Shown: piece by piece, positions 11,600 to 48,122 of the stretch
Layout of the letters: the number at the start of each line of letters is the position of its first letter
Numbering within the stretch: the first letter of the stretch is position 1
NCBI GenBank assembly: GCA_015179125.1
Contig: WHVA01000293.1
Coordinates: 78,553 to 142,552 of the forward strand
DNA from: Gautieria morchelliformis
Lineage: Eukaryota > Basidiomycota > Agaricomycetes > Gomphales > Gomphaceae
Reading direction: 5' to 3'
Length of the DNA: 64,000 bases
Notes under the pieces: generated by a model
Told to the model about the DNA's origin: nothing
The model's input: the letters and a program-made list of their open reading frames with translations, nothing else
Database searches by the model: none
Made by a program: the position numbers and the translations under genes

Positions 11600-12490
11600 G
11601 CAAGCCTATCACTTTTGCATATCCATGTATACTTATGCGCATCAACACTGTACGGTGGTTGCATGGAGTTTAAATATGCTCTGCTTGTGCAACTGGAATA
11701 TCAGCATCCATCAGGTGGATTGGGTACATCACAATCTCCATAAGCTTAATCTCATTTTAATGTGCTCCACCCAGGCCAAACGCTGCTGATCTTCACGCGC
11801 ATTACAATAGGGTCTTGCATACTCATGTGTGGCAGGGTGTTCAATGCAGTCATGGGCTTATAGCCTTCATACTATGGGGCCCATGCATGGGCTAAGTCAG
11901 CACACAGCCCAGATGTTGGCATGAGAGCCTTTCTCATCATGCTTCTTGTGACAGCCCTCCACCGGAGGAACAAAGTACGTTCCTCAATGATGGTGTGGCG
12001 TGTGCCAGGCACTTTCATATTGGATCAGGGAACTGGGATTGGGAGTATACTTCTGCCGAACAGAATAGCATCTCAGACACCGACACCTATATTGACCATC
12101 AAACAGGCTGCTGCCCGGGATGAACAGTGACCATTATTATCAATGCTATGGTTGTGAATGTGCATGTTAGACTGTTAGTTGGCACTGATGCATCCTGAAC
12201 CCTGGTGTAAGATGGCCAGTTGTGTAAGAATGCAATGATGGTATGGCATGCCTCATAGCTTTACAAATAACATAACCTTCAGAAATGGTCAGGATCCCAG
12301 GCATGTGCATGCACACACACCATATGCAGTTCCTTTCCATGTGCCCAGCCAAGCCCATGCCACCATATTTCTCAAGATGCAATTCTCTGATCAGTACACA
12401 GTAGACTGATGCCCAGCATCAATGGATGAGCAGTACATTCATGAAGCAAAGTAATGAAAAATTACAAACAAAGGCAAATTCAAAGCCTTG
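11600..12490. repeat. Intergenic spacer of the 6.2-kb unit, copy 1
   Basis: No gene is supported. The spacer recurs at 30803-31568 (shared order TTTAATGTG, GCAGGGTGTTC, GGGCTTATGACC or similar, CACCGGAGGAAC, AGGCACTTT, GGGAGTATACTTCTGC, GAATAGCATCTCAGAC) and partly at 21660-21970. Confidence 0.7.
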
Positions 12491-21970: not shown

Positions 21971-22251
21971 CAGCATATATATATATGCGCATATGTATCT
22001 ACTATTTTTGACAGTATGGAGTGACCAGAGTGATCAGATAACCACAACTTCTAAGGCGACCAATTGCAAAGTGCTGCAATAGATTGGAAAGGTGAGAATG
22101 GGATGGTTAAGGCAAGTTGCTGCATCTTGATTGCTGTGGGGTTTATATTTGAATTGTGCCTATGATGCATTAGTTTGCATGCTACCCTTAAGCCTCTGCT
22201 GTTCTTCCAGATCCTACCAAGCTATTAATCAGTGCCTGATGGAGACCCAAA

Positions 22252-24001
22252 TCACTCACTGGACACAACAGGGCCCACCAGTTCTACATCTCCAGAATAT
22301 CCAGTTGCCCAAGGGAACTCCTCTAACTCTATCCCAGCTGGCCTAGCTTCTTCAGACAGATGGAACTCCTGATCAGCCACATTGTTTTGCAAGGTCTCAG
22401 CACCAAAAGTCTGTGGGTTCCCAAATTCAGCCACTATGGCATTGTGAACACTTTGTCTGGCTGCTTGGAAGGTGGAGAATGAAAGAGTGGGTAATGAGGG
22501 GCTGATAAGTTGAGTGTGTCTCTCTTTGAGAGCTAGGTGAAAATGGCAGATGATAACTGCTGACAAGCTGTATGTGCATTGTTAGTACAAGCACAGGTCT
22601 TTCCCACTGAAAATATACCTATTCTGAAGAGGGCTTAAGATGGTACCCAGGCTTGGCTTTATACAACAAAGGAGCTGAAATTAGCCATTTTTATTATCAA
22701 GATCAATGTCTTACGTACCCTCAATACCTGAAATGTAAAAGAAAACAGAGTAAGCTCTCAAAGCTTAACACATTTATAAGTAACAAGACCTTAGATATGA
22801 TAGCATTAGCTACAGTAATGGTGAGCACAAATATGAATATGAATCAGACATGAAATATAATAGGAATAATATTCCATACCCATATCTGACAAAGCCTTAT
22901 CTGAGATTAGTGATATGACCATATATATATGCAATATGTTATATGCTCACCTTGGTAAATGAGTAGACTAATGAGAGATTTCTTATCCCAAATCTCACCT
23001 TTTTGCCAAAGCCTCAGGGTTTGAATTGAGCTCAGAATGGTTACTATCACAACTCCAGTGTCAAACAGGATTACAGTAACATTATTGATGGTGTCCACTG
23101 CCAAAGGTATTCAGTGACAAATCAGGCAAATACAGACCCCTAGATCTTACCCCTGCAGAAGTTGTTAGTATAAATCTATGCAGAAAGTCCTAGTCAGTAC
23201 TGACAAAATCACTCTATTAAGTTGTGATATAGTGATATTGCAGTTGTTCCAAACAGACAGGTACTATATCCAGTGAAATGAATTTATGCTATTTATATGA
23301 AGTCTACACAGGGACATACCACTTGAGTGATAATAGCACCAAGGATAAGCAGCGCAAGAACACCCAAAACTCTTTGATTCTGAAGGGAAATCACATAGGT
23401 GCGAGCTAGCAGTAGGCCTAGACAAGTAAATTGTGTTGATCTTTCTACCTGAGAAATATAGGGGTATAATCCCTCACCCTGTATTCCAATGAGAGAAAGA
23501 ACGCCACAAGGATCACTGAGGTGATTGATAGCATTACATTTCCTCCAAATATATGAGTCTCTAGGTTGCTTTTGCATGAAGAATGAAAGTCTTACTAGAT
23601 GCTCATTCAAATCAGTAGGGGGGTTACTCATGAGAACAATGGACGTAATGCACCTCAGTGGAAATGTTAGATAAGTTAACATATATCTCAGCAAGAAACC
23701 AAACCAAGGGCATGTAACGAGCAAGTAAATAGAGAATGGTGCCGAGCCTGACGGCCTTGCACCAAATGTGGCTGATCTCAGATGGCAGTGTGAGAAGCAC
23801 GTCAAAGAAGAGTAGTGCTGTGTAACAAGGTATGGAACTCGTGGAATTACGCGGGAAATGGACACATACCAAGCGCTGCGAAGATGGCAGAGTTGATCGC
23901 AAAGCTAGTTCAGGTAAGCTGTTTTGCATCGCACTCAATGTAGTAAGTACGGACCTGTCTGATATCACCTGGATAACAGCCGAGGCGTCCGCCTGAGACA
24001 T
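22252..24001 (-). CDS. DUF6533-type multi-pass membrane protein gene, copy 3
   Basis: This is the clearest exon structure in the array. From ATG 24001: exon 24001-23955, intron 23954-23905 (50 nt), exon 23904-23870, intron 23869-23818 (52 nt), exon 23817-23705, intron 23704-23654 (51 nt). The first three exons total 195 nt and read in frame through SFAINSAIFAALALLFFD, LLTLPSEISHIWCKAV and ILYLLARYMPL, the DUF6533 signature. Later blocks: VISLQNQRVLGVLALLILGA (about 23330-23400), FDTGVVIVTILSSIQTLRLW (22990-23060), AVIICHFHLALKER (22525-22563). The protein should be an integral membrane protein of unknown function. Its C-terminus stops early at VVSSE (22252), where copy 2 has two extra bases and runs on. 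Exons around 23480-23650 are unresolved. Confidence 0.65.
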
Positions 24002-24085
24002 GATATAAGACAGAGAAACTGGGATGCGGACGATGGACTAAGTTTTGAGTAACGATGTGGGGTTGGAGTAGCGGATCGCGAAGGT

Positions 24086-24096
24086 GTATATATAAG
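24086..24096 (-). promoter_or_regulatory. TATA box of DUF6533 copy 3
   Basis: TGTATATATAA lies about 85-95 bp upstream of ATG 24001, conserved in all copies. Confidence 0.5.
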
Positions 24097-24596
24097 ATTC
24101 TGGCCATGGGTGCTGCCAGGTCAACAGATATTCACAGCATCCTATATCAGTTAACAATACAACGTCAACGCATCAGACAGGGGTAGCCCGGCAGGGGCGA
24201 GTAATTGATGTTTGGGTTCTTGCCTGAAATTGGTCATCGCCTCCGATTTGCCTGTGTCCATATAAACTTGTCATGTAGGCACACTGGGTACTCATTGACG
24301 ACTCACAGTGCAGTGTCAGTGTGACACCACATGAAAACCAATTGCGACACAGCTCACGGATGTGTATCAAGATGTCGCGTATCCGGTGTGTTCCTTATAA
24401 AGAGGGGAACATGAGGCACATGAGAGATCTAGCTCAATCGCCAGAGTTTTCATGTATCTGTAATTACATAGAGATGTTGGATGGTCTCTGCAGACATACC
24501 AGCTCGTGTCGATGTTGCTGGATATAGCGACACGAGAAATTTCTCATTTGGCGGCATGTCCTGTACGACGTGGGAAGCGGTCGTATAAAGAGACCA

Positions 24597-30802: not shown

Positions 30803-31568
30803 TGGAGTTTAAAATACACTCTACTGGAATATCAGCGTCCATCATGTGGATCGGGTACGTCCTGATCTCCCTCAGTTTACACTCATTTTAATGTGATGCC
30901 AGACTCCATCCAGGCCAAATACTGCTGATATACGTGCGCATTACAATAGGGCCTTGCCTACTCCCATCTGGCAGGGTGTTCGATGTAGTCATGGGCTTAT
31001 GACCTTCGTGCTATGGGGCCAATGCATGGGCCGAGTCAGCGCACAGCCCAGGTGTGGGCAGGAGAGCCTTCCTCATCATACTTCTCTTCAAGTGCTGTGA
31101 CAGCACTCCACCGGAGGAACGAATTACGTTTCTCAATGATGGCATTGTGTAGGCCAGGCACTTTTATATTGGATCCAGGAACCGCAATTGGGAGTATACT
31201 TCTGCTAAACAGAATAGCATCTCAGACACTGACACCCATATCCTGGACCACAGGACAGGCTGCTGCCTGTGATGAACAGCGACTATTATTATTGATTCTA
31301 TATTTGCAAATGTGCATGTTGGGGTATTAGTTGGCACTGATGCATCCTGAGCCCTGACATAAGATGGTCTGGTGCATAAGGGTGTGATGATGGTATGGTA
31401 TACCTCATAGTGTTTATAAATAACATAACTGAACACACTTTCAGACCAGATCAGGATCTCAGGCACGTGCACGCACATGCACACACATCAATGGAGTAGT
31501 GGTGCATTCATGAAGCAAAGTAATAACAGATTACAAACAAAGAAATTTTAAAGCTTCACAGCATATAT
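30803..31568. repeat. Intergenic spacer of the 6.2-kb unit, copy 3
   Basis: It matches 11640-12490 over most of its length and ends with GCTTCACAGCATATAT, the same sequence that leads into the DUF6533 block at 12491 and 21971. Here it is cut by the putative Helitron, and the DUF6533 block resumes at 44991. Confidence 0.8.
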
Positions 31569-31649
31569 TACTCTTCTATTAAGCATACGACGTGTGAAAG
31601 TTTGTGCCCCTTTGCCCCTGTTTGTCTCTGCTTTCTCTGTTTTTTTTTG

Positions 31650-32030
31650 GGAGCATCGGCTCCATTTGTCTCACTCTTCGTTCTTCTTTTTTGTCATTAA
31701 ACCTTTTTGAGCTACAGGTCCATTTGTCTCACTGTCGCTTCATCATTTTTGCCGTGAAACCTTTCCGCGCATCGTCACCGTTTGTCTCACCGTAGCTTCT
31801 TCATTTTAGCAGTGCTGTTGCTTCATCGTTTTTGCCGTGAAACCTTTCTGCGCATCGTCACCGTTTGTCTCACCGTAGCTTCTTCATTTTAGCCGTGCTG
31901 TTGGTTCATCGTTATTGCCAACGTTGACTCGTGACCAGCCTTCACCGTTTGTCTCACCGTACCTTCTTCATTTTTGCCGTCAACCCTTCTTGCAACTTCT
32001 CAATTTCTCTCACTGTTGGTTCATCGTCAT
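31650..32030 (+). repeat. Degenerate minisatellite, period about 83 bp
   Basis: The segment GTCACCGTTTGTCTCACCGT recurs at 31774, 31857 and (as TTCACCG...) 31941, with shorter degenerate copies at about 31657 and 31719. It sits near the 5' end of the putative Helitron. Confidence 0.8.
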
Positions 32031-32031
32031 T

Positions 32032-32300
32032 CACACTACCATGCTGTCGCGAACCAAAATCCTGCAAATCTCTTGCCAAAATAAACAGCGTACCCGTCGG
32101 TCTCCCCCTCAACGCTGGCCCGACCGTCGCTGCCGGCAGTTAATCCGCCTACATCACATGACGCACACTACCGTGCAGTCGTCAATGAAAATCCTGGAAA
32201 TATCCTGCCGAAATAAACAGCGTACCCGACGGTCTGCCCCTCACCGCTGGCCCCGCCGTCATTTTCGCTGCTCGCGGTTAATGCGTCCACCACCGATCCT
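32032..32300 (+). repeat. Two-copy tandem repeat, period 132 bp
   Basis: CACACTACC starts at 32032 and again at 32164. Both copies contain AAATAAACAGCGTACCCG and GGTCTGCCCCTCA-like blocks. The frames across them encode similar Arg-rich peptides but no known domain. Confidence 0.8.
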
Positions 32301-32619
32301 CTCACGTGACCCAGGAAGAGGGAGGTAAGCGGTCGACTAACCATGTCAAGCTCTTTACATCACTCTATTTTCCAATATAGCAAGGATATTGACTGCTCTG
32401 AGTGGCTACTCATTGTGGTATCTTCTTTGTGTTTCTCCTTTCGCCTCTCGCAGGTGTCACATACAGATGACATCGCCAGTCAGTGTCTATGGTAAGGGGG
32501 CGGTTGCATTTGTGCAAGTGGGTTCATAACCATTCCCCAGTTATCTCCCCCCGTTTAATGCACTCCCTTCTTTAGTACAGATTTATTCTCAGTCAGGGAC
32601 TTTACTTGCGGTCAGTTCA
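32301..32619. other. Gap in the Helitron 5' region, no gene supported
   Basis: Possible small exons (CACATACAGATGACATCGCC near 32458, followed by a GGTAAGG donor-like site) may belong to the next gene. Nothing firmer is visible. Confidence 0.3.
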
Positions 32620-33122
32620 CAAGAGGGTCTCGTTCGCGTAGACCCAAATCCGTGCAGCGCGAGCAGGAAGAGGTAGCTTACTCTAAATTGTGTCGATTTA
32701 TTTCAGGTCAGACGTTGTGAGTAGTGTTTATATTTTTGCTTGCACCGACCACTTAACGCTGCTGCTAGCGTGGTATACCTCGCCATAATTCATGCTGCTC
32801 AACGCTCATTTACCCTTTCAGTCCAGGAAGTTAAAATGTTTCGTTCATTTGCACAAATTTCAGCTCCAAGACACGCAAGCTGCATCGCTTGGGAGTGGTC
32901 GATAAATCGGTTCACGGCGACCCCGTGATTCTGGATGTACCATTGGAAGACTTTTGGATCGACAGCTTCAACCGTGAGCTTTGTGAGTGGAAGCCACCGA
33001 ATAATACGACAGCGGAGATCTTTGAAGACCAATGTCAGAATGTGCAGGGGTTGTCCTTACGAACCGGTGCACTGGATCTAGACATATGCGTCGGCCAGTA
33101 TACGAAAAATAAGAGAGAATAA
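32620..33122 (+). CDS. Hypothetical gene with introns (putative Helitron cargo)
   Basis: Likely exons: a basic stretch SRSRRPKSVQREQEE ending near 32671 before a GTAGCT donor-like site, and a last exon opening after TTTCAG at about 32870 that reads KLHRLGVVDKSVHGDPVILD, VPLEDFWIDSFNREL and GALDLDICVGQY to TAA near 33120. The last exon is clean for about 80 codons and looks like real protein (mixed acidic and hydrophobic, conserved-looking turns), but I do not recognise it. The 5' end is uncertain. Confidence 0.4.
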
Positions 33123-33267
33123 ATAATCATTAGGAGAACGGTTTATATGAGTCCTCGGTCCAGGTCAGACATAAAATCTACAAGACAAAAACAGAAAGGG
33201 AGGGCGGAGGGCAAGCATAGACATCCGCTGTCATGATCAAGTTTATATTTTTTTTCCAGCGCCACTA

Positions 33268-33903
33268 TTGTATCGTCGTGTAACAACTACCTGCGAGTCG
33301 ACCCATCAGAGCCAACATGGGTATCTTCTGTACGAACATAACGGCTCCTCCCATTTTAGAGCCTCCGTGTCGGAACCGGCCCAACACAGCCAAGTCGAAC
33401 AGACGCGGTGTGCTACAGAGAGGCTGCGCATGATACACAGCCGCCATGTAGCAGACCGCGACTATTTGACTTGGCTGCATCGGGACGGTTCAGAGGTAGT
33501 GAAAAAGGCTTGGTGCAAATTGTGGGAGGACCGCGGGAGGTCGACCACCTTTTTCATCCTTTGGGATGACATAATTTTTGCTTCCGGTGCCCTTCCCCTG
33601 TCTGCGCCTACCCGCCCTCCTCTTTCATCAGCCTCCTGTGCCCCTCCTCTTTCCCAAGAGTACACTACTCAACGCTTGAATGATGTGCTCATTGGGCTCG
33701 AGAAGAGTTCCAATAAGCTCTTCGTCTTCTACAAGGTAAGGAATGTGATAAATCTCAGCACGACAATATGTTTTCTTACAGTTTTAGCTGCTGCTAAGCA
33801 CTCCTTGACCTGTGAGGCTTCCACGACCAGCCAGGTGAGTCCGGCTAGGGCGAGGATGAGGGTAGCTGACGGGGACTGGGCAGAGCACGAACGTTACCAA
33901 TAA
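33268..33903 (+). CDS. Hypothetical gene (putative Helitron cargo)
   Basis: A 211-codon frame follows a pyrimidine tract and TTTTCCAG at 33260, so translation may start upstream of the first visible ATG. A canonical intron (GTAAGGAATG...CTTACAG, about 33736-33780) may remove part of the frame, joining LFVFYK to a VLAAAKHSL segment. Visible blocks: RMIHSRHVADRDYLTWLHRD, a Trp-rich KKAWCKLWEDRG, and IIFASGALPLSAPT. No domain is recognised. It lies 146 bp after the previous hypothetical gene in the same orientation; the two could be one gene. Confidence 0.35.
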   Translation: MYRRVTTTCESTHQSQHGYLLYEHNGSSHFRASVSEPAQHSQVEQTRCATERLRMIHSRHVADRDYLTWLHRDGSEVVKKAWCKLWEDRGRSTTFFILWDDIIFASGALPLSAPTRPPLSSASCAPPLSQEYTTQRLNDVLIGLEKSSNKLFVFYKVRNVINLSTTICFLTVLAAAKHSLTCEASTTSQVSPARARMRVADGDWAEHERYQ

Positions 33904-34164
33904 ACGGCAATGACCGCATACAATGGGATGTGTCAACACGCACAGCATGACTTGAAGAACGGTGAAGACGAAGAACACGACTATCTAACAGATTCTAGAC
34001 TATCCGTCAACACACGACATGTGCATGAAAGCTGAATTATAACGCCTACGAAACTGTGAACAGCATCACCGAAAGTTTGGGTGTATTTGTGGACGAGGTT
34101 ACTAGGTGCGTACGGTTAGCTGCGGTGTGTCTAAGGGAGACCCTAATGTTTGGAATGTCTTAAA

Positions 34165-34310
34165 GGGTGGCACGAAGTACGGTCCACGCGAAGACCTGGA
34201 GGAGGCGATTTCATTGGATCGAGAAGCTCTCCAGCTGCGACCTGCACTGCATCCTGAACGATCCTCCTCCCTCAACCACATCGCAATTGCGGATGTCGCG
34301 TTCATCAGTT
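34165..34310 (+). pseudogene. Captured TPR-repeat fragment (TPR/CHAT-type protein)
   Basis: The frame reads YGPREDLEEAISLDREALQL and LRPALHPERSSSLNHIA, one tetratricopeptide repeat of the highly repetitive kind found in Agaricomycete TPR/CHAT proteins, where RREDLEEAISLxREAL is the usual repeat. Only about 1.2 repeats remain, with no start and an abrupt change of sequence at both ends. It is a gene fragment, as expected for Helitron or other transposon capture. Confidence 0.75.
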
Positions 34311-34800
34311 GCGCGGGGGTTGTGATCATGATATTCCTCTGCAGCACACTCGCTACTGCAACACAGCTACTCTGTTTCGCAACGTGGCCACGTGATGCAG
34401 CCAATACAGTCCCCATCGCTTCTCTTCTCTATGCCTCCATCCCTGGATGCAGTACCCGGGCTTTTATCTCCGCTCCTTTCATCCTTTGACATTCTATTAT
34501 GTCCTCCAATGCACGCACCCGCTCCACGTCACCCTCCGCCCCCGTCAAATGCGCCCTGTCTCCTCCTCGCCACCCGTGCACACCCACCGCACCAAGCCAC
34601 GCGCTCCCATCCCCGCCCAGCAGCGCATCCTCCACACACTCGCCGACCTCCGCCGCGCACACGTCCGTCTTCGATTTGGCCCTCACCCTAACGTGGCCGC
34701 GTGATGCAGCCAATACGGTCCACATCCCTTCTCTTCTCTGTGCCTCGATCCCTGGATGCAGTACCCGATCTCCGCTCCTTTCATCCTTTGACATTCTATT

Positions 34801-35080
34801 ATGTCCTCCAACGCATGCGCCCGCTCCACGTCACCCTCTGCCCCCGTCAAGCGCGCCCCGTCTCCTCCTCGCCACCCGCCCACACCCGCCGCACCAAGCC
34901 GCGCGCTCCCATCCCTGCTCAGCTGCGCATCCCCCACACCCTCGCTGACCTCCGCCGTGCGTACGTCCGTCTTCGATTTGGCCCTCACCCTGGGGCTGCA
35001 CGTGTGGACTGGATGGTCGAGTGGAACGTCGAGGCTGCGCACCGCATATCCGGAGAGGTACGCACCCAGCGCACCCAGCG
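34801..35080 (+). CDS. Uncharacterised SP/TP-rich protein, copy b of the three-copy family
   Basis: ATG 34801 gives MSSNACARSTSPSAPVKRAP, a Ser/Pro/Thr-rich, probably disordered N-terminus, followed by TSVFDLALTLG. In copy c the same frame continues SLVVHWMVEGNVEAAHRISGE up to a GTACGC donor-like site, with a downstream CCCCTACAG acceptor; copy b has a small insertion/deletion after LTLG that shifts the frame before the equivalent WMVEWNVEAAHRISGE. It may therefore be broken. The SVFDLALTLG...EAAHRISGE block is the best candidate for a conserved core. I do not recognise the family. Confidence 0.4.
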
Positions 35081-35614
35081 CTACTCACCCCTCCCCTCAC
35101 CCGCTCACGCATGTCTGCCCCTACAGTCCCCCCGCGAGCACGCCACACTGGCCTCCATCCATGATGGACGCGACATGGTGGGCCATTGTAGATGCTGCGC
35201 AAAGCCACGGGCAGTTGTTGGCGTTGATGTGTGTCCGGGCTTGCGCCTGTCACTGGTTGAGTAAAGTACGCTTACCGTACGTCCGACGTTACTGAACACT
35301 GTTCAAAGGGGGAAACTCGAGCTTCTCTTATCTATGCCTCCATCCCTGGCTGCAGTACCTGATCATACGGTCCCCATCGCTTCTCTTCTCTATGCCTCGA
35401 TCCCTGGAATCAGTACCCGATCTCCGCTCCTTTCATCCTTTGACATTCTATTATCTCTTCCAATGCACGCACCCGCTCCACGTCACCCTCCGCCTCCCAT
35501 CAAACGCGCCCCGTCTCTTCCTCGCCACCCGCGCACACTCGCTGCAGCAAGCCGCGCGCTCCCATCTCCGCCCAGCTGCACATCCCCCACACCCTCCCCG
35601 ACCTCCACCGGCGT

Positions 35615-35911
35615 ATGTCCGTCTTCGATTTGGCCCTCACCCTGGGGTCGCTCGTCGTGCACTGGATGGTGGAGGGGAATGTCGAGGCTGCGCACCGCAT
35701 ATCCGGAGAGGTACGCACCCAGCGCACCCTGCACAACTCACCCCTCGCTTCACCCGCTCACGCATGTCTGCCCCTACAGTCCCCTGCGAGCACGCCCACA
35801 CTTGCCTCCGTATTATCGCCAGGCGGGTTTTCCAGTGCTGGCACCCATATGCGTGGGGTGCGTTCTCTCTCTCACACACCGTCCTATACTTACCCTACGC
35901 TGCAGAGGTGA
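35615..35911 (+). CDS. Uncharacterised protein, copy c of the three-copy family
   Basis: Copy c has lost the start used by copies a and b (ATG to ATC at about 35452) but keeps an uninterrupted core MSVFDLALTLGSLVVHWMVE and GNVEAAHRISGE from ATG 35615. A GTACGC donor-like site and a CCCCTACAG acceptor-like site frame a probable intron of about 70 nt. It could produce an N-terminally shortened protein or be dead. Function unknown. Confidence 0.35.
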   Translation: MSVFDLALTLGSLVVHWMVEGNVEAAHRISGEVRTQRTLHNSPLASPAHACLPLQSPASTPTLASVLSPGGFSSAGTHMRGVRSLSHTPSYTYPTLQR

Positions 35912-36055
35912 TCGTCTCGGTTATGCCTCGTTCGACGAGTAGGGAGGCAAAAAACAATGTAGTCTGCTATTAATACACATAGTTGGCTGAATGGTGAACT
36001 GCTTCGTCTCCTGCTTCAATTCGCTTTCACTATTGTGTACCCATCATCGGTACCT

Positions 36056-36507
36056 TCATCCATCGTTGTTGACTATTTCCAGTAAGTGGCCTCTCATGCA
36101 TTGGATATGATTGGCGATATGCGTTAAAGCTTCCACAGGCACAGGAAGTGTCGTCACTTCGTACTCCAGGATTTCAATGTCTCTCAGCAACGGCAACGTG
36201 TGGTCTCTAGCAGAGAGACCGCGAAGATGGTAAGGAGGGTGCGTAGTCTCGAAGACTTCGATCAGTTGGTCCACTGCGGTCTCCATTGAGACTTTGGGGC
36301 GACTGGTCTGAAATAGACGTTAGCCATTCTCACGTGTGGAGTTAAGTTGTCATACGTTTCTACTCCTGCCCCTTTTCTCTGTTGCTTTAGTTGTGTGCCC
36401 GGGCATGTGAGTGGTTGATGTGAAACTGATTGAGTGGTAGTAGGGGTTCTGGATAAGTATTTATATTGTTTAGTTGATGCAAAGTTGCTGTCTTTCGGTT
36501 GTCTCAT
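36056..36507 (-). CDS. Hypothetical minus-strand gene with one intron
   Basis: Exon 1 starts at ATG 36507 (MRQPKDSNFASTKQY) and runs to about 36356. An intron of about 50-60 nt follows (GTATGA donor, GCTAACG branch-like site, TTTCAG). Exon 2 reads METAVDQLIEVFETTHPPYH, ARDHTLPLLRDIEILEYEV and HIANHIQCMRGHLLEIV. Frame agreement needs the acceptor a few bases after TTTCAG. It is divergent from the next gene (229 bp apart) and may share a promoter with it. A helical, leucine-rich protein of unknown function. Confidence 0.4.
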
Positions 36508-36735
36508 GTAGTGTCGTCATTGGAAATGTTTACAGATGAGACATGTCATTAGAATTTAAGTCATTACAAATCCAACCAAGGTTCATGGCTGTAGAATGGA
36601 TGTGCCTATCTGAAACATACTTACAAATGTGATCCGTGTTTTGGGTGTTCTGGGTTGGTGCATGATATGGGACATGATCACGTGATTTCAGGAGTATAAG
36701 TTCACAGTCCAGGCCATAGTTTTTGTACTATACAT

Positions 36736-37612
36736 ATGTCTACCGTCAATCTAACTGCCAATTTATGTCTTACTGGGGGTCGTCGTCAGACGGCGTCTCC
36801 TACTTACTACTGTCATTATAATACTGTCTTGCAGACCTGCCATGAGGATGTGGTCATCCCCGTCGACCTCCGTGTCTATAGTCCTCCTGGGGAATGTCTG
36901 TTGCCAGATAACACTGTTGCCCACGTTGTCGGCCGTATCTTTGCCCCCCCATCTTCCAAGATTTTGATGGATGTGTTATCTATTGTACCATATCCTGGAG
37001 ATCCAAAGGCCGACAATTATGAAGATAACATTCTAGATGACACATCTGTGGCCATTTGGGGGGTGGGGGCTGTCATCAATAATATGGAGTATGGAGCAGA
37101 TTCTAAGACGCACTTTTTTAACTTGGCTGTCTCTGACTATGTTCGAGATGGCACAAAGTCGTTCATGTTGGGGTTCGTGTCTTATCTGTTTTTTTTTTTG
37201 TGGTGTCAGTGTTCACTTTTGGGTGACCAGTTGTATTTATGATGGCAACTCTGTTCGTTGGAGGCGCACCCCAGCTCCTAACATAAACACTGCAATTTAT
37301 GTGTATGGGTTGCTGAAGGATGTTAATGAGCAGGGGAACCTGTCCATTGTTGTGGATCATGTTGCTTTGAGCCTTGGGTCTGGAACAATTGCTGGGAGGG
37401 GGGGAGGTGGTCCAGACAGGGGTGATAAAGGCAGTCGCCATCGCAGGAAATTCGCAGCTGCAGCTGTTGATGAATATAGGGCAGATGATGTCAATCAGAG
37501 GGATGACACCAGCATGCCTGCCACGTACAGCCCCTCGAAGGAAACTATGGCATCTGTGGCTGATGATTCCTCCAATTTGATGACTAGGAGTGGTAAGCGT
37601 CGTGCAACGTAG
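36736..37612 (+). CDS. Putative OB-fold/RPA-like ssDNA-binding protein (possible Helitron accessory gene)
   Basis: Exon 1 36736-37172, intron 37173-37230 (GTTCGT...ACCAG, 58 nt), exon 2 37231-37612: 272 residues without a stop. Blocks seen: VVIPVDLRVYSPPGECLLPD, NTVAHVVGRIFAPPSSKILM, VPYPGDPKADNYEDN, FNLAVSDYVRDGTKSF, CIYDGNSVRWRRTPAPNINT, IYVYGLLKDV, then a Gly/Arg/Ser-rich tail ending RSGKRRAT. The beta-rich pattern with VGRI, L.VSDYVRD and IYVYGLLKDV is what an OB-fold looks like, and such proteins of unknown function are common in Agaricomycetes. RPA-like genes are known in plant Helitrons, and this one lies in the same element, same strand, about 3.2 kb upstream of the helicase. The OB-fold call is inference; the gene itself is convincing. 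Confidence 0.55.
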
Positions 37613-37619
37613 ACGCCTT

Positions 37620-40600
37620 AACATATTTTGTCTTAGTGTTTACATGTATTTTTTGACATCCATGTGTATTCTCTGGAGATTTGTAAATTTATTATTGTCT
37701 GTGATACTTCTTGAGGATGGCATGCATATGTATTCTCAGCAGATTTATGTGGAAAGAACTGACCAGGAGGATGTGATAGCCTGGATGACACCTACACCTC
37801 AGTGCATTGACTGATGGTTACAGGTGACATCAGACTAGGAAAACCATTAGTAAATACCATAAGGAAATCAGGAAGCATCACTCATTTCAAGAACACATCG
37901 ATGCAGAAACCATGTGTCGTCCGGCTCTCACCCTACCGGGCATCCCGGGCAGGTATCAGTTGTGGGTATGTCTTGGATGCGAGCACAGAACAAACAGGCC
38001 TGCAGATCCCTTGCCTACGGATGAATTACTATTCGAACACTGCGCGCCTAGGAAATTAATGGCCAGCTAACCAGGAAAATATACTGCATCTGGTCGCCGC
38101 GGCTGATACCTAGGCACGGGAAGAATGATCACATGAGAGTTGGACCGAATAGTTACTGAGCACCCACACCCCACTGGTATCATGCACCTCTCACGTGCGA
38201 GTCACAGTACACGTCCACAACACGTCCACAATCACTTCGAGGCTGCCATAGGGCTAGGCGCTGTACCCGTATGGGCCGTATATATGGCTGCTGTATGGAT
38301 CCGTACCTACCAAAGCTAGGTTGGGGACATCCCACCGTATGGTGACAGTACGTATGACCTCCGTATGAGGCCGCACAATACTACATAGAGGAAAAGTCAC
38401 CCAACATGGTACTTATTAGTTCCAATTAGTAGGGAGGGAGTCAATGTATCCGCACAAGTTGTATCTCTAAACATTGACATAGTGGTTTTCAAGATAATAA
38501 TCCACATATTTCTGTACTATAGGACATTGGGGATGGAAACCGCACGATATGGAACGAACGACGTACAAATCATACATCAAATGTGACCGCGACTTTTATC
38601 TAATATACAGCTTCGCCAACACAAGGCGTGCAGTAGGTAGAAAATGAAGGCGCAGGAAATGGTTATGTGAGATGTGAATGTGACAGGCGGACGACGCGAA
38701 GCTAAATGAAAAAAGGACAATCAAGACACATTGGAGACTGAATCGATTAGGTATCGTACCACCTAAGGGCCCCTTCCATTGTTACACATTTTCTGTAAAC
38801 CATGTCAGGATTTTAAAGTCAATAATCCACATCTTTCTATACCTGCAGGATTTTGGCGATGTACTGTGGGAGATATAGAACGGAGGACATACAAATAACT
38901 GTTCAAAATAGTCCCAGGCGATCAAATCCGAGGTCCCTATCCAAGCTACAGCTTCGCCGACACAAGGCATGGGGTAGGTAAGGAACAATGCCTGAGGAAA
39001 AAAACGACGTATCACGCATGATGCAAAGGGGCTAGGTGGAAGACGTGAACCTAAATGAAACATGGACAAGTAAGATGCCTTCGTAGTTGAATTCGACAAG
39101 ACATCATACCATGTCAGGGCCCCTACGTTGCCGCTCTACTACCATATTCTGGCAGAATATGTCGCATATCACATCTGATTTTCTGTAGACACTCAGAGGC
39201 AGCATACTCTCTTCATGGATACTAATCGTATGTGAAGTTTTCGGCGCACAAACAGGCGTCCAAAAGGTTAAGAAATTTGCCATACGTGTGTGATGACGAA
39301 CGTCGCTATGCAGAAGACGAGGGTCGAGGAAGCTGTCACAGTGGAGTCATCCAAGGCGGTTGCGGAGGTTGTCAGCATGGAGTCCTCAAAGGAGCTTCAG
39401 GAGGTGTCGCAAAAGTGTGATATAAAGTATTATTTAGTCATGGGGAAAGTCTAGCAGCTCTGAGAATACATGACAGGAGTTATAGATGCGTGCTAGAGAC
39501 GTCTAGGATGGACGCTATGTTTGACATGACATGCTGTAGTGCACGTGGTATAAATCACGTGATAGATGTGACGAAAGAGTCCCCGGAACCGCCTCTGCTC
39601 CAGGCGTGCCATGCTTTAGGCATGGCGAGACCGCGGGGATATGATCCACTGTTGAGACCCAAGAGCGCGAGGGGAGAGATTGTGCACGGGGGGGACAACT
39701 TCGCATGACTGTGACGGTGGGATCGGACAGATACATGTGTGATACTTCGGGGTACAGGACACAACGGGACAACTCCAGAGACTCAGAGGAACAGACGATC
39801 CAATGCAACAGGGTGCGAACAGTCAGATGCCAGGTGATGTACTGTTGAGACGGCATATCGGTATATGCGCGATGCTGCCACTGTACCAGGCTATGATGGG
39901 TCCACTCAGCAAGTGAGCACCAGAGGGCTATGGGGTCGTACACAGGCATTGCAGAAGCGTGCTTATTCCTACCTCAGTGCTATAACCGTAGTGGAAGCCG
40001 TCAGCGAACCACTCCAATTCGTCCACAATCTTTTCAAGGTATCCAGCGAAGTCATAACAACCTGTTCCTGCGGACCTTCACAGTGAGTTAGACAGAGCAG
40101 GTTTAAATCCAAGCCTCCGCCAGAGCTCACATAGGTATGCAGGGGTTTTCTAATTTGCTGCAACGGACCGGCTTGGGTTAGAAAGAGGGCGATGACGCGT
40201 AAAACCAATAACTTCTCCCGTAGGACGCGAAGATTACACGGGGCTGTGTCCGGTTACTAATGCTGAGACAACGCTGTATAAACTGCAACCCTTTCTTTAA
40301 GACATCACATCCTTACCCTCGGACTTTATCGGAGTGACGACGTTGTCTCATCCAAAGATAGGGGCGCGATCTCCGGCAAGTTTTAGTTGATGAACCTTAT
40401 CATTCAGATGGTCCGCTGAGTCATTCGCCTGTATGGCATTCTCAGATGAGTAATCGACATGGGCCACGTCGAGATTTTATATAATGATCGTGTTCCCGTT
40501 AGCAGTTCGCAATCTTAACATCTTCATGACCTTTGAAATATACACGGAATTCCAACGGAGAGGACCCATTCATGTACGTCTTCTTTCAGCCAATGAGGGT

Positions 40601-40766
40601 TACCTGACCTTTTCGTACAGCTTCACGTGTTCTTCTTCGACGAGGGGAGATTCATTACACGTTTACATCTATTCTTCACAGATCCCAATGAACACGGGGT
40701 GATTGTCCATAACTACAACAAACAATCTCTTTAATCTGGTCACATCCAACTCCTATCTACAATAAC
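37620..40766. other. Long non-coding stretch between the OB-like gene and the helicase
   Basis: Only short frames, none with recognisable domains. It holds the 325-bp direct repeat at 38491-39140. The rest shows no repeat, RNA or gene that I can support. Confidence 0.5.
38491..39140 (-). repeat. Two diverged tandem repeats, period about 325 bp
   Basis: AATAATCCACAT.TTTCT.TA, CAGCTTCGCC.ACACAAGGC, CTAAATGAAA and GGGCCCCT occur in order in both copies (starting 38491 and 38816). The minus-strand frame 38782-39099 and its broken counterpart in copy 1 share FHLxSRxPP and PMPC/LHALCW-like blocks, so the repeat may be coding in origin. Confidence 0.65.
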
Positions 40767-42515
40767 ATGGCTTTCTCTTCTACAATCACATGGGCTATCG
40801 GCAATATCTCATCACCCAGTTTTGTATGGGGGCAAAACCGTGGAGGACGGATACATGATTGCCCTTATTGTCACTTAGTCCTTTTGACAGGTGAACGAGC
40901 AGGGTTTTGTTGTGGGGATCGAGGAAAACGACTGCATGACATTAAGCCACTTCCTCCGTTGCCTGAAGAGTTCAATGTATTCACTCATGACCCCAACATT
41001 TCATCTTCATCGCGTGTTTTAAACTTGATCTACTCTTTTGCTTCTTTGGAATCTACATCAGACTTCCCTGGACTACATGGACCTCCAGGTTTTTTCTCTG
41101 TTCAAGGTCGACTTTATCACCGCCTACGACCAAAACATCAGAACTCCGCTATACGATGGTTATTATACGATGGCTTTCTAGCCTCTCAAGCCCCTCATCA
41201 AAATTGGTTTCATTCGTTATCACGCGTCTGGACGATTGCAATGCGTGATGCATTGCTACGGGTTAATCCGTTTGTTCATGCATTGCGCCAACTGTCGTCC
41301 ATTCAACCATCTATTTATCCTGAAGCATCCATCATCCTCAAAGAATCATCGCCTTCAAATGAGGTGATAGCTTCTAAGACACACGTCATACTTATACTTA
41401 CAGCCGTTTAGATTGCGGCTATTATGTCTTTTCGCAACACTACCCAATCTGATGTCCATTCACGGTCTCTCACAGTTGCCAAGACCTATGGACATAATCA
41501 ATCTATCCCCACCATTAGCCGTCTCTGGGAACCATTGGTATATCCCCTGTTTTTCCCACATGGCACTCTAGGCTAGGGTGTAAATGAAGGCTTGGGTGTT
41601 TCTGCATCTGATGGTGACACAGAGAGTGTCTCTACACAGATGTGGTACTACCATGGCACACTCCTTCGTGAACCTCGGTTTCAACTCTTTGGCCGTCTAT
41701 GCAATGAATATATTGTCGATATGTTCACTTGCGACCTAGAATGTAGACTGAACTACATCCGTCACAATCAACAAAAAGCGTCTCAAGATCGGGGTTCATC
41801 TACTAATAACATCTACTTACCTGCATCTTTCTTGGTTCAAGAAAATGGGCCTCCGAACAGATTTCAGATGCTCTTGCCCTAGCTGCGACATATGGACCGC
41901 CTACATTCTTTATCACTATGACATGCAATCCTCAATGGCCTGAAATATCCCAGCAGTTGCGTCCTGGGCAAGGATTTGAAGATGCACCTTTAATAGTTTG
42001 TCGAGTATTCAAGCGGAAATTGGGTCACTTTCTGTCAACATTATCATCAATGTTTCCAAATGCAGGTCGGCGATTATATTTGATATACTGCATTGAGTTT
42101 CAAAAACGCGGGTTACCCCAATGTCATATTCTCATCAAATTTCAATCCGAGTGCATCACACCTGATGACATCAACAAAGTCATTTCCGCAGAAATTCCCT
42201 CTAATGATGAAGATGCCGCTCTGATTAGAACCCATATGCTCCACCATCATCCTCCTCGTAACTGGCCTGCATCACGTTACTGTCAGCGTGAAAATAATGG
42301 ACTTCGCACTTGCAGGTTCAACTATCCACGCCAACTTCAGGAAAATACAACCTTTGATGATGAAGGCCGGGTATTGTATCGACGTCATATGCCTGGAGAT
42401 GAGATGGTGGTTCCTCATTGCCTTCCATTAATCCGGAAATATCGATGCCACATCAACTTTGAAGGTGCAAGTACAGGTCATTTATTTCAATATATTTTTA
42501 AATACATACACAAAG
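40767..42515 (+). pseudogene. Helitron Rep (HUH nuclease) region, damaged
   Basis: This is the N-terminal part of a Rep/PIF1 Helitron protein. The first frame (40767-41411) has a Cys-rich zinc-like start (DCPYCHLVLLTGERAGFCCG) and PLPPLPEEF. Broken frames follow with LNYIRHNQQKAS. From 41918 comes the Rep core: TFFITMTCNPQWPEISQQL (first Rep motif), IEFQKRGLPQCHILIKF (HUH motif region), NGLRTCRFNYP and KYRCHINFE, and the tyrosine region YIFKYIHKG. The HUH motif normally reads HxH after RGLP; here the first His is Gln (codon 42119-42121). Internal stops occur near 41411 and 41574. An intron probably follows at 42516-42555. The Rep activity is almost certainly lost. Confidence 0.85.
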
Positions 42516-42555
42516 GTAAGTTCCTAGTGTATTCTTTCAAGCTATTTCTAAACAG

Positions 42556-44938
42556 ATGTAGGTCCTGATCGCACATGGGTACATTTGAGAGACACCTATG
42601 ATTCATCAGTTGATGAAATTGCTGAGTTTTAGGATGCGTGTTATTTGTCAGCAGGGGAAGCTGCATGGAGAATTTTGGGATTTCACATAACAAGCAAAGA
42701 ACCTGCTGTTACAGCTCTTCCCATACACACCCCTGATTCAACATGTTATCATCAATATGATCGATCCTCACAACCTTCCAGCTCCATGTCCAAGCTTGAC
42801 CATTATTTTTCATGTCCCTATGGGTCTTTTCATGACGACAACAATGTTGAACAAAGTTTTGCCAACCTCACTTACACAGACTACTATCGCCTTTTTCGTC
42901 TTCAAAAATTCAACTGGGATAATCAAAACAACTCCCGGTACTACATGGAAAAACCCAACGTCCTCGGCCAACCTATGATGCATGTCATTCTTCGTAAACC
43001 AAACAAGCCCCATATCACAAGACTACAACCCATCCGGCCATCTGAAGGAGAACATTTCTATATCCGCTCCCTTTTATTACACCTCCCAGCTATATCCTTT
43101 GATGACTTGCGTACCATCCAGGGCCACTTACTGCCTACATTTCAAGAATCAGCTCTAAATCACGGTTTATTTGTTGATCAATCAGAAGGAGACTCATGCA
43201 TCTCTGAGGCCATTCAAACTCTAAACACTCCACGGCAAATTCACCAATTATTTGTCCATCTCCTTACCAATGACTGTTGCCCTCTACCAATTAACACATG
43301 GCACTCATTCGGTCATGAATTATCACAAGACTTCCTCCACCAACAAGGTGGTAATGTTGACTTAGCACAGACAGCTGCTCTGACAGAAATATCAAAAAAC
43401 TTGGATGAACATGGACGTCAATTGTCGGACTTTGGATTACCTGAACCACGTTTACGTGGAACAGAAATTGAACATGAGTTACGGCAATGGTCAGCAAACA
43501 TCCCTTTGCTGCATCATCGGAGTCAAATATGTCGTGCATCTTTCACGGATGAACAAGAAGCAATCTTTTCTGAAATTGAACAAGCGGCTAACTCTAAATC
43601 TCCACTGCTATTATTTGTTGATGGACCGGCTGGCCGTGGCAAAACATTTCTTACAAACACCATCTGCAACTCACGTCGTCACCTACGTGAGATTGTTCTG
43701 CCCACTGCAACTTCTGCATTTGCTGCACAAGTTTACCCTGGAGGTAGAACCACGCACGCTGCTTTTAGAGTATATAATTTTGATTCCATTACACTGCTTT
43801 GAGGACTTACACATTTGGTTGCAGGTACCTGTCAATGATGCATCTGAGTTCTTACTATCGCCTATTGACCCTGATGACCCACGAGGACAACTACTCAAAG
43901 AAGCCTCTATCTCCTATGGCTAATCGTGCAGTTCTCGCCTGTGTCAATGAAACTCTACAACGCATCATGCAGAATGACATGCCATTTGGAGGAAAGATTA
44001 TCATCCTCTTAGGTGACTTCCGTCAAACATGTCCTGTGGTGCGAAAAGGTTCCAAAATGGATGTCATTGATGCATCCATTCGCAGCTCTCCCCTCTGGAA
44101 TGAGTTCCAAGTCCGTTCCTTGACTACTCCAGTGCGCCACGCGATGGACCCTGGATTTGCCTCTGCTATTGATGACATTGGCAACGGCCCTTCTGGCAAT
44201 GTTTCTTTGGACATGATTCAACATATCACATCTACTACAGATGCTGTTGACTTTGTATTTCCACCGGAGGTTTTGGCAGACCCCACTCAATGCCTGACCC
44301 GTTCAATTCTTGCACCAACAAACTCACAATGTGACATGTATAACTCCATATGCCTTCACAGGCTGAACACTTTGGAAAAAATCTACACTGCAGCAGACTC
44401 TATCAAAGCGACTGATGACGTTAACCTCCTCTCACCTCAAGGCATCCTTGACTATGTAGCCCGCCAACACCACCTGGACTGCCTTCTCATACGCTATCTA
44501 TCAGACTTGGAGGAATTTACCGCTTGATGCGTAATTTGTCAATTGGCCATGGCTTGGTCAAAAACTGCAGAGTAGTCGTCACTCAATTGGGAACAAAGCT
44601 CATCACTGTTAACTCCCTCCGTGTCCATGCTGGACTTAATTGTGTTGATAAAGAGAACATCCTCCTTCCCCGTATCACCTTCTCTTCTTTATTGCCCTCC
44701 ACCCGCCACACTCTTCTTCGCAAGCAATTTCCTTTATGTCCCGCATATGCAACCACTTTCAACAGCTGTCAAGGTCTTACCCTGGATCTGTTGCCATAGA
44801 CCTGACAACCCCCCTATTTAGCCATGGGCAACTTTACACTGCTTTATCACGGGTTCGACATAGACTGGACGTTCGAGTACGTTTTCCTTTACATGAACTA
44901 CAGACACAAAACATCGTCTACAATGAAATTGTCCTCTA
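42556..44938 (+). pseudogene. Helitron PIF1-like helicase region, damaged
   Basis: It continues the Rep protein. A frame from 42645 gives the linker (FNWDNQNNSRYYMEKPN, PIRPSEGEHFYIRSLLLH) and the first helicase motif FVDGPAGRGKTFLTNTI (Walker A, about 43615-43665). The Walker B motif, usually LIIWDEAPM, is missing: KEASI joins SPMANRAVLACV directly near 43907, a deletion of about 16-17 nt that also shifts the frame. Then come GGKIIILLGDFRQTCPVV, TPVRHAMDP, LAPTNSQCDMYN, YATTFNSCQGLTLD and, after another frame change, HGQLYTALSRVR (motif VI), ending at TAA 44938. Length and order match full Helitron helicases. No ATPase could be made. Confidence 0.9.
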
Positions 44939-44960
44939 ACTCTCCCACATCCGCTAAAGA

Positions 44961-44990
44961 CTCGCCGAAGCGAAGCGCAGGCGAGGCTTG
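44961..44990 (+). repeat. Helitron 3' terminal hairpin
   Basis: CTCGCC (44961-44966) and GGCGAG (44980-44985) form a 6-bp stem with a 13-nt loop, ending 5 bp before the junction with the duplicated unit. A short GC-rich hairpin just inside the 3' end is a Helitron hallmark. The last four bases are CTTG, not the canonical CTRR. Confidence 0.65.
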
Positions 44991-45264
44991 TATATATATA
45001 TGCATATGTATCTACTATTTTTGACAGTATGGAGTGGCCAGAGTGAGCAGATCACCACAACTTCTAAGGTGACCAATTGCAAAGTGCTGCAATAGATTGG
45101 AAAGGTGAGAATGGGATGGTTAAGGTGAGTTGTTGCATCTTGATTGCTGTGGGGTTTGTATTTGGGTTGCATCTATGATGCATTAGTTTGCATGCTATCC
45201 TTAAGCCTCTGCTGTTCTTCCAGATCCTATCAAGCTATTAATCAGTGCCTGTTGGAGACCCAAA

Positions 45265-47011
45265 TCACTCACTGGACACAACAGGGCCCACCAGTTCTTC
45301 ATCTCCAGAATATCCAGTTGCCCAAGGGAACTCCTCTAACTCTATCCCAGGTGACCTAGCTTCTTCGGACAGATGGAACTCCTGATCAGCCACATGGTTT
45401 TTCAAGGTCTGTGCATGAAAGGTCTGTGGGTTCCCAAATTCAGCCACTATGGCATTGTGAATACTTTGTCTGGCGGCTTGGAAGGTGGAGAATGACAGAG
45501 TGGGTAATGAGGGGCTGATAAGTTGTGTGTGTCTCTCTCTGAGAGATAGGTGAAAGCGGCAGATGATAATTACTGACAAGCTGTATGTGCATGGTTAGTA
45601 TGATCACATGTCTGTCTCATTGAAAATATACCTGTTCTGAAGGGGGCTTAAGATGCCACCAATGCTTGGCTTTATACAACAAAGGAGCTGAAATTAGCCA
45701 TTTTTATTATCAAGATCAATGTCTTACGTACCCTCAATACCTGAAATGTAAAAGAAGAGAGAGTCAGCTGTCAAAGCTTATCAGGTTTATAAGTAACAAG
45801 ACCTTAGATATGATAGCATTAGCCACAGTAATGGTAAGCACAAATCTGAATATGAATCAGACATATGAAATATCATAGGAATAATGTTCCATACCCATAT
45901 CTGAGAAAGCCTTACCTGATATTAGTGATATGTCCATATATATATGCAATATGTTATATGCTCACCTTGGTAAATCACTAGACTAATGAGAGATTTCTTA
46001 TCCCAAATATCACCTTTCCTCCAAAGCCGCAGGGTTTCAATTGAGCTCAGAATGGTTACTATCACAACTCCAGTGTCAAAAATGATTACAGTAACATTAC
46101 CGATGGTGGTCACTGTCAAAAGTATTCAGAGACAAATCAGGCAAATACAGACACCTAGAGCTTACCCCTGCAGAGGCTGTTAGTATAAATCTATGCAGAA
46201 AGCCTAGTCAGTACTGACAAAACCACTATATTAAGTTGTGAACTAGTGAGATTGCAGTTGTTCCAAACAGACAGGTACTATATCCAGTGAAATGAATTTA
46301 CACTATTTATATGAAGTCTACACAGGGGACATACCACTTGAGTGATAATAGCACCAAGCATAAGCAGCCCAAGAACACCTAAAACTCTTTGATTCTGAAG
46401 GGAAATAGCACAGGTGCGAGCTAGCAGTAGGCCTAGACAAGTAAATTGTGTTGATCTTTCTACTTTAGAAATATATGGGTATAATCTCTCACCCTGTACT
46501 CCAATGAGAGAAAGAACAGTGCAAGTACAACTGAGGTGAAACATAGCAGTACATTTCCTCCAAAGATATGAGTCTCTAGATTGCTCTTGCCTGAGGATGA
46601 AAGTCATACTAGATGCTCATTCAAATCAGTAGGGGGGTTACTCATGAGAACAATAGATGCAATGCACCTCAGCGGAAATGTTAGATAAGTTAACATATAT
46701 CTCAGCAAGAAACGAAACCAAGGCATGTAACGAGCAAGTAAATACAGAATGGTGCCGAGCCTGACGGTCTTGCACCAAATGTGGCTGACCTCAGATGGCA
46801 GTGTGAGAAGCGTGTCGAAGAAGAGTAGTGCTGTGTAACAAGGTATGGAGCTCGTGGATTTAGACGGGACATGTACACATACCAAGCCCTGCGAAGATGG
46901 CCAAGTTGATCGCAAAGCTAGTCCAGGTAAGTTGTTTTGCATCGCACTCAATGCAAGTACGGACCTGTCTGATAGTCCCTGGATAACAGCCGAGGCGTCC
47001 ACCTGAGACAT
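45265..47011 (-). pseudogene. DUF6533-type multi-pass membrane protein gene, copy 4
   Basis: Minus-strand gene from ATG 47011 (MSQVDASAVIQGLSDRS). The first three introns are at the same places as in copy 3, and the exons give SFAINLAIFAGLALLFFDTL, LPSEVSHIWCKTV and LLARYMP. One base is missing just before the third donor (GCCTTG instead of GCCCTTG), so the frame is shifted at this splice junction. Later blocks AISLQNQRVLGVLGLLMLGA, FDTGVVIVTILSSIETLRLW and IIICRFHLSLRERH are well kept, and the C-terminus ends at VVSSE as in copy 3. It is a membrane protein of unknown function, probably inactive unless splicing compensates. Confidence 0.65.
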
Positions 47012-48122
47012 GATATAAGAAAGCACTGGGATGCAGAGGAGGGACTAAATGTTGCGTAGCGATGTGGGGTTGGAGTAGGAAACCGCGGAGGGTGTCTATA
47101 TATAAGATTCTGTCTATGGGTGCTGCCAGGCCAACAGATATTCACACCATCGCTGAAGCATGCCACAATTTGCAATGCGGATGGGGTTGATAGAAGAACA
47201 ATATAAAAGAATTAAAGTTAGTAATACAACAAAGAAGCATCATCCAGGGAGTACTTGGCTTCTCGTCAGGAGTTGGTTACTACCCTGGATTTGCCTGATG
47301 GATTTAAAACCCGTTGTCCTGTAAGGACACTTGGCACTCATTGTCGACTCGTTGTGCGGTGTCAGCATAACGACACATGAAAACCAACTCCGGCAAAGCT
47401 CACTGTTGTGAATTAAGATCACGCATCTCCAATGGGTTACGATGGGAACACGAGGAAGTCAGACGGTATGACAGATCTAGCTCAATCGCCAGAGTTCATG
47501 TATCTGTAATTCTGTAGCGACGTTGAATGGTCTCTGCAGGCATATCAGATCAGCCTTGTGTCAATGGGGTGGATATAGCGACACGAGAATTTTCTCAGTT
47601 GGCGGCATGTCCTGTGCGACGTGGGAAGAGGTCGTATAAAGAGATCATCAAATCTCGACATGGAAAACAACATGGTAACCGAGATATTGTGCATTCGGTG
47701 TATCGGCTGTGACGGCGATGTAGTGCTGTGAAAGCTCAGGAAGCCACTGAGGTGATCTGCGACATGTTTGCAGTTTTGTCTAGTGTGATATTATTAGAAT
47801 GGGGACCATGCGAGCTAACGAGCATAAACGGTACCTGGCATGTTTTTTCAGTCATTCGATTATTCAGATTGGAAAAAATTGTAGCTGTCATGAATCATGT
47901 GAGCTCTCTTGGAACACCGGTAACTGGTGGGATCCAGAGTAAAACATAAACGACATCACCTAGATACACGACGCATTCCCATCGAATTTCATAAACGCTT
48001 ATCGACCGGATACTGATGATTCTGAGCCAGCCAAGAGAGCTTTCGTCTCGTGTGGGCACTTCCACGCACCAAACAAAGACAAACATGCACACCGCCGCCC
48101 GACTCAGAGTAGCGTGACACAG
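47012..48122. repeat. Upstream region of DUF6533 copy 4
   Basis: It matches 9341-10437 closely (closest of the three). Homology to the array ends at 48122 in GTAGCGTGACACAG, where the microsatellite and H1 should follow. TATATATA at 47096-47105 is the conserved TATA block. The MSQIT frame is broken. Confidence 0.7.
47096..47105 (-). promoter_or_regulatory. TATA box of DUF6533 copy 4
   Basis: TATATATA about 85-95 bp upstream of ATG 47011, as in the other copies. Confidence 0.5.

Follow-up and report, generated by a model that had tools for sequence, protein, structure and literature searches.

In the genome of Gautieria morchelliformis (Gomphales; 122 Mb and 1,113 contigs searched), a stretch of 64,000 nucleotides on contig C330 (C330:78553-142552, referred to here as the window) contains repeated host units with a DUF6533 gene, one of which is split by a block of about 13.4 kb. 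The question raised by this locus is what the block is and which of its genes belong to it, as a sequence-only reading had taken it for a giant Helitron that moved in one piece and carried host genes with it. The block, at 31568-44990 on the + strand (13,423 bp), is very probably a decayed Helitron from a lineage with multiple copies and a 3′ end of CTTG, and nearly the whole 13 kb transposed as a single unit, as proposed.

Insertion site, boundaries and family copies

The host units near 21,976 and 12,490 lack the block. Matches to DUF6533 (PF20151) at 23624-24001 and 46604-47026, in two flanking frames (nine frames tested), confirm the identity first given to the flanks, and 44991-47151, the right arm, aligns to 21976-24141 at 91.6% identity. 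The left junction reads CAGCATATA|TTACTCTTC and the right junction GGCGAGGCTTG|TATATATATATGCATATG. Joining 31567 to 44991 gives an unbroken AT run, as in the paralogous empty site of the upstream host unit (unit B, 21971-21998, unstranded); a join shifted one base later places TT inside the run. The empty unit near 12490 (unit A), more diverged than unit B, can be aligned as well.

AT precedes all 26 of the 5′-end loci read (22 distinct flanks) and T follows all 30 of the 3′-end loci read (27 distinct flanks), so the element is taken by convention to start at T 31568, after a host A at 31567, and is followed by a host T at 44991. The right junction and the continuity with 21971-21998 stand as first read, and the start moves by one base from 31569. 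Insertion inside an AT repeat without a resolvable target duplication, also part of the original reading, agrees with these flanks and with the empty-site join, a 1-bp duplication of T being formally indistinguishable from a 5′-terminal T. It weighs against this interpretation that the empty sites are paralogues with right arms 8-13% diverged, all within the same window of one strain. The left junction has a second copy, since 30659-31896 matches C330:1990-3225 in inverted orientation at 97.3% identity, with the element portion cut off by the beginning of the contig (C330:1-3225), so the junction was duplicated after the insertion or the copy is an allele.

A collinear copy lies at C443:65171-78413, which matches 31567-44996 at 96-98% identity in long pieces, with one interruption at 37983-39615 and another from an insert of 355 bp, and has flanks unrelated to those of the window. 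Its presence at this unrelated site, and the fact that two host paralogues in the window lack the block, argue against the block being ancestral where it now stands.

The 5′ terminus (TTACTCTTCTATTAAGCATACGA, 31568-31590, + strand) is defined by the shared start of genomic matches, the flanks of which differ between loci except for AT; 38 of 53 matches to 31569-32370 begin at the first base of the query. The 5′ core TCTTCTATTAAGCATAC is found at 125 places in the genome with up to two mismatches, compared with none for the reversed-pattern control. The 3′ terminus, GCTTG at 44986-44990 (+ strand) with host T next, was searched as a 30-mer (76 matches with up to three mismatches) and with a looser pattern (100 matches), both of which included the hairpin loop GCGAAGC and neither of which gave a match when reversed. 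Co-occurrence of the two ends in other copies had been set beforehand as a test, and for 32 of the 100 listed 5′ ends a 3′ end follows in the right order on the same strand no more than 25 kb away, with 0 in reversed order and 4 and 3 in two opposite-strand controls. The remaining 68 are unpaired, as expected of decayed or otherwise-ended copies. Paired ends are 0.8 to 18.6 kb apart, the window copy ranking 26th of 32, and seven aligned copies of the Rep gene are nearly equidistant (97.7-98.4%), a pattern that would fit a burst.

At C252:115400-122000, a Helitron_like_N frame of more than 1,500 codons from a distant Rep class stands between CTTG-class ends, one Helitron class being nested in another. 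The same contig had offered an autonomous candidate, with a 3′ end and a 1,571-codon frame upstream that is open at the start of the region examined; this was rejected, as the frame has no DNA match to the window Rep and an internal deletion affects the CTTG-class Rep at this locus.

The Rep-PIF1 and tandem-OB genes

The Rep/PIF1 helicase gene read near the right end is present at 40767-44939 (+ strand), with matches to Helitron_like_N (PF14214, E 8.8e-17) and PIF1 (PF05970, E 1.7e-15 and 5.1e-19), and in the window copy it is now a pseudogene. Alignment of the seven copies gives it private deletions of 1 bp (41828), 17 bp (43911), 1 bp (44466) and 1 bp (44789), one of which takes out the Walker B stretch found in all six other copies. 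In the HUH motif, Gln replaces the first His, which is kept in four of the six other copies, where a motif search found HUH. The fusion of a Rep domain (HUH, two Tyr) with PIF1 is thus a property of the family that is broken in the window. Judged from the private deletions and the lost His, the window Rep is dead, and the copy probably died after landing. Mobilisation in trans of an already dead copy was considered and found unsupported, as the deletions are private among the seven copies. Among the other copies, C443, C523, C782 and C571 carry distinct lesions and C1026 and C703 have no indel; the Rep matches of C703 and C532 contain a stop codon.

Upstream of Rep in the window lies an intact gene for a protein of 272 amino acids with a predicted tandem oligonucleotide-binding (OB) fold, encoded on the + strand by exon 1 (36736-37172) and exon 2 (37231-37612), with the splice site placed from homologues; many relatives have the gene ahead of Rep as well. 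The structure was predicted for a homologue, P0001, rather than for the window protein, and Foldseek placed it with the tandem-OB single-stranded DNA-binding proteins (SSBs) of Deinococcus and Thermus, bacterial SSB and editosome entries ranking ahead of those for replication protein A (RPA). Homologues occur upstream of Rep down to 37% identity (C309), position and strand relative to Rep are constant across diverged relatives, and in a comparison with 90 Rep positions of the distant class, none of 87 SSB-like loci came within 15 kb. The ratio of nonsynonymous to synonymous substitution (dN/dS) is 0.30 against the homologue on C337.

With about even confidence, the CTTG Helitrons of Agaricomycetes are proposed to be two-gene transposons, in which Rep-PIF1 is accompanied by a dedicated, bacterial-SSB-like tandem-OB protein that may bind single-stranded DNA and protect or guide the transferred strand. 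Several observations weigh against such a role. The SSB entries share only about 10% identity with the predicted fold at TM-scores of 0.44-0.56, and a PDB sequence search returned no SSB, its one hit being a designed protein at E 0.7. Among the matches listed, 12 of 30 Reps have no SSB-like match upstream and 59 of 87 SSB-like loci have no Rep downstream, and dN/dS between some close copies is high, up to 0.92.

It is possible, if rather unlikely, that the tandem-OB gene is instead a host gene captured repeatedly and without any part in transposition. Homologues occur in many Agaricomycetes, where their genomic context is not visible, and both the loci without a downstream Rep and the truncated gene copies in small elements are what repeated capture would leave. 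Such capture is harder to reconcile with a position and strand that stay unchanged across diverged relatives, with the absence of the gene near distant-class Reps, and with the dN/dS of 0.30. The small elements in question, of about 1.57 kb with paired ends (C231:5148, C382:320505, C700:6198 and C915:56569), contain only the first 55 or so codons of the SSB-like gene.

Under the two-gene proposal, Rep would nick the transferred strand at the 5′ end and the PIF1 helicase would displace it as single-stranded DNA, which the tandem-OB protein would coat; Rep would then end the transfer at the 3′ hairpin and CTTG and join the strand between the A and T of the target. The window copy would derive from a working Rep source, its own or one acting in trans, with its Rep dying afterwards. 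To our knowledge, it is open by what means the single-stranded intermediate of Helitrons is protected and if host RPA is needed, and a lineage with a conserved SSB-like gene of its own makes the question of protection testable.

Plant Helitrons also have an extra gene for a predicted single-stranded DNA-binding protein, of which the SSB-like gene, if the proposal is true, would be an independent counterpart. As far as the available text describes it, the plant gene is RPA-like, in contrast to the Gautieria gene, the predicted fold of which is closest to the Deinococcus and Thermus tandem-OB SSBs (PMC4683698). The gene would have been overlooked because the proteins seen carry no Pfam domain, P0001, P0010 and P0011 having no match. 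Fungal Helitron1 and Helitron2 elements with TET/JBP genes (PMC12730594) and the abundance of Helitrons in Basidiomycota (PMC7550596) have been reported, with SSBs unmentioned in the portions of text available. CTTG ends were known before; the open-licence literature searched yielded no earlier description of fungal Helitrons with an SSB-like partner gene, which is weak evidence of novelty.

Other cargo

The cargo first described was an OB-like gene, a fragment with tetratricopeptide repeats (TPRs), minisatellites and four or more hypothetical genes, all regarded as brought in by one element. An 83-bp minisatellite is present in the 5′ region (31732-31980, + strand; Tandem Repeats Finder), as is a probable TPR-gene remnant (34029-34703, + strand), recognised by DNA matches to arrays of one of its units on C239, C293, C326, C180 and C287. 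A related Rep lies downstream on the same strand on four of these five contigs, with positions compared by eye. The C239 array matches TPR_12 (E 6e-7) and TPR_10, both slightly short of the Pfam cut-off, and the window frames within the remnant have no TPR match in Pfam. Self-comparison and repeat finding also revealed a 302-bp unit in two tandem copies (34381-34991, + strand), to which a third stretch, near 35365-35811, is related. The hypothetical genes stay putative; none of the other window frames that were tested reached the Pfam cut-off.

Many family members share the modules of 32370-36000 (40 of 139 candidates scored) and those of 36001-38125 (40 of 135), which are therefore not captures of the window copy alone. 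Only 38126-39616 (+ strand), private among the family copies listed (40 of 135 candidates scored), looks both foreign and particular to the window copy. Its best match, for 38352-39616, is C382:202447-203711 at 95.7% identity, with a weaker one elsewhere on C330, and no coding homology was found for the segment. It was rejected as a captured gene: none of its reading frames is convincing, and visual inspection of the right junction shows no more than about two shared bases. It may have entered before or after transposition.

It is improbable that the element is a canonical Helitron1 with several freshly captured host genes. Its large size, the TPR-like fragment and the private 1.5-kb segment with its 95.7% match elsewhere would suit that origin, yet most modules are present in other family copies, the OB gene precedes Rep in relatives as diverged as that on C309, TPR arrays stand on contigs with related Reps downstream, and the CTTG end is not that of Helitron1. 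Fresh capture was mostly not seen, although no search was aimed at intact donor genes of the host; the 5′ modules, OB gene and Rep are common to many copies, and most of what this giant copy carries has been passed down in the transposon family. HELPO1 of Pleurotus ostreatus is likewise gene-carrying and up to 13.7 kb long, with RepHel introns in two subfamilies, but in the available description it has a CTRR end, and its cargo genes, such as capA and capB, lie downstream of RepHel rather than upstream as in Gautieria (PMC4289320).

Termini, the 3′ hairpin and related Helitrons

The termini are non-canonical, as first read. The start is TTAC-TCTTC, with TC internal rather than terminal, and CTTG at 44987-44990 takes the place of the CTRR of Helitron1; CTTG is found in 98 of 100 3′ ends, for which the search pattern included CTTGT and allowed up to two mismatches. 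The 6-bp hairpin noticed before the right junction was borne out by folding, with a stem of CTCGCC/GGCGAG (44961-44966 and 44980-44985) and a 13-nt loop, GAAGCGAAGCGCA, containing GCGAAGC (44961-44985, + strand), so that the end is laid out as GACTCGCC-GAAGCGAAGCGCA-GGCGAG-GCTTG|T. A hairpin near the 3′ end is shared with the Helitron superfamily, with a spacing to the end of 5 nt compared with about 10-12 in canonical Helitrons.

Across 66 distinct 3′ ends, stem positions pair in 75.3% of cases, compared with 70.8% with shuffled partners (0 of 2,000 shuffles; the shuffle ignores descent), and one pair covaries, being C-G in 35 ends and G-C in 8. Four of six folded 3′ ends beat their shuffles (z -2.2 to -3.1). 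The other two are no better than shuffles (C293, z -0.7; the TCCGCC group, z 0.8), making a strict need for all six stem pairs unlikely; these, with the spacing and the missing TC and CTRR, weigh against the Helitron reading. Among six neighbourhoods of related Reps picked without the loop pattern, a like end is present at C293 (Rep 68%) and C309 (50%), the end at C180 (71%) is altered, and none was found at C137, C761 or C510. Hairpins with a GCGAAGC loop have special stability. The loop is only a side note here because the 3′-end searches required it, and no link of a GAA loop to a terminator was found in the open-licence literature.

HELPO2 of P. ostreatus, to which the element is likened by description and not by Rep sequence, shares with it the CTTG 3′ end, the subterminal hairpin, A^T insertion without duplication and Rep-PIF1 (PMC4289320). 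According to the available part of that source, HELPO2 consists of RepHel only, is 3.9-10 kb long and has no RPA domain in the RepHel open reading frame, whereas in the Gautieria lineage a distinct tandem-OB gene and further modules precede Rep, and as much as 18.6 kb separates paired ends. Exact ends are now available for the CTTG lineage, members of which would be missed by tools that seek CTRR.

There is little probability that the element is of the Helitron2 or Helentron type. The end is non-CTRR, and AT before and T after the element are also described for two groups of FoHeli, the Helitron2 of Fusarium (PMC5148889, in part), which is likewise fungal. The asymmetric terminal inverted repeats and 5′ hairpins described for FoHeli were not found in the window copy, however: an ungapped comparison of the first 60 bp with the last 100 bp gives no inverted match better than chance (381 of 500 shuffles did as well), no 5′ hairpin is predicted, and kinship with Helitron2 was accordingly set aside. 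With a T^T join of the flanks, the AT run seen in the empty site would also be interrupted.

A composite of nested insertions or segmental duplications with a chance Helitron-like start and end is scarcely credible, for although nesting on C252, the abutting elements on C571 and the duplicated junction at the start of C330 are of that kind, a collinear copy of all but 38126-39616 stands at the unrelated C443 site and the end pairs are ordered, with 0 reversed.

At C571:15244, a 3′ end abuts the 5′ core of another element, which would fit either A^T insertion into that end or a head-to-tail array. In two elements of the distant Rep class (32-34% identical to the window Rep), the CTAG end is preceded by a TGC-GAA-GCA hairpin, the tip of which is the same as that of the 5′ hairpins described for FoHeli1 and FoHeli2, closed by C-GAA-G, in the available text (PMC5148889).
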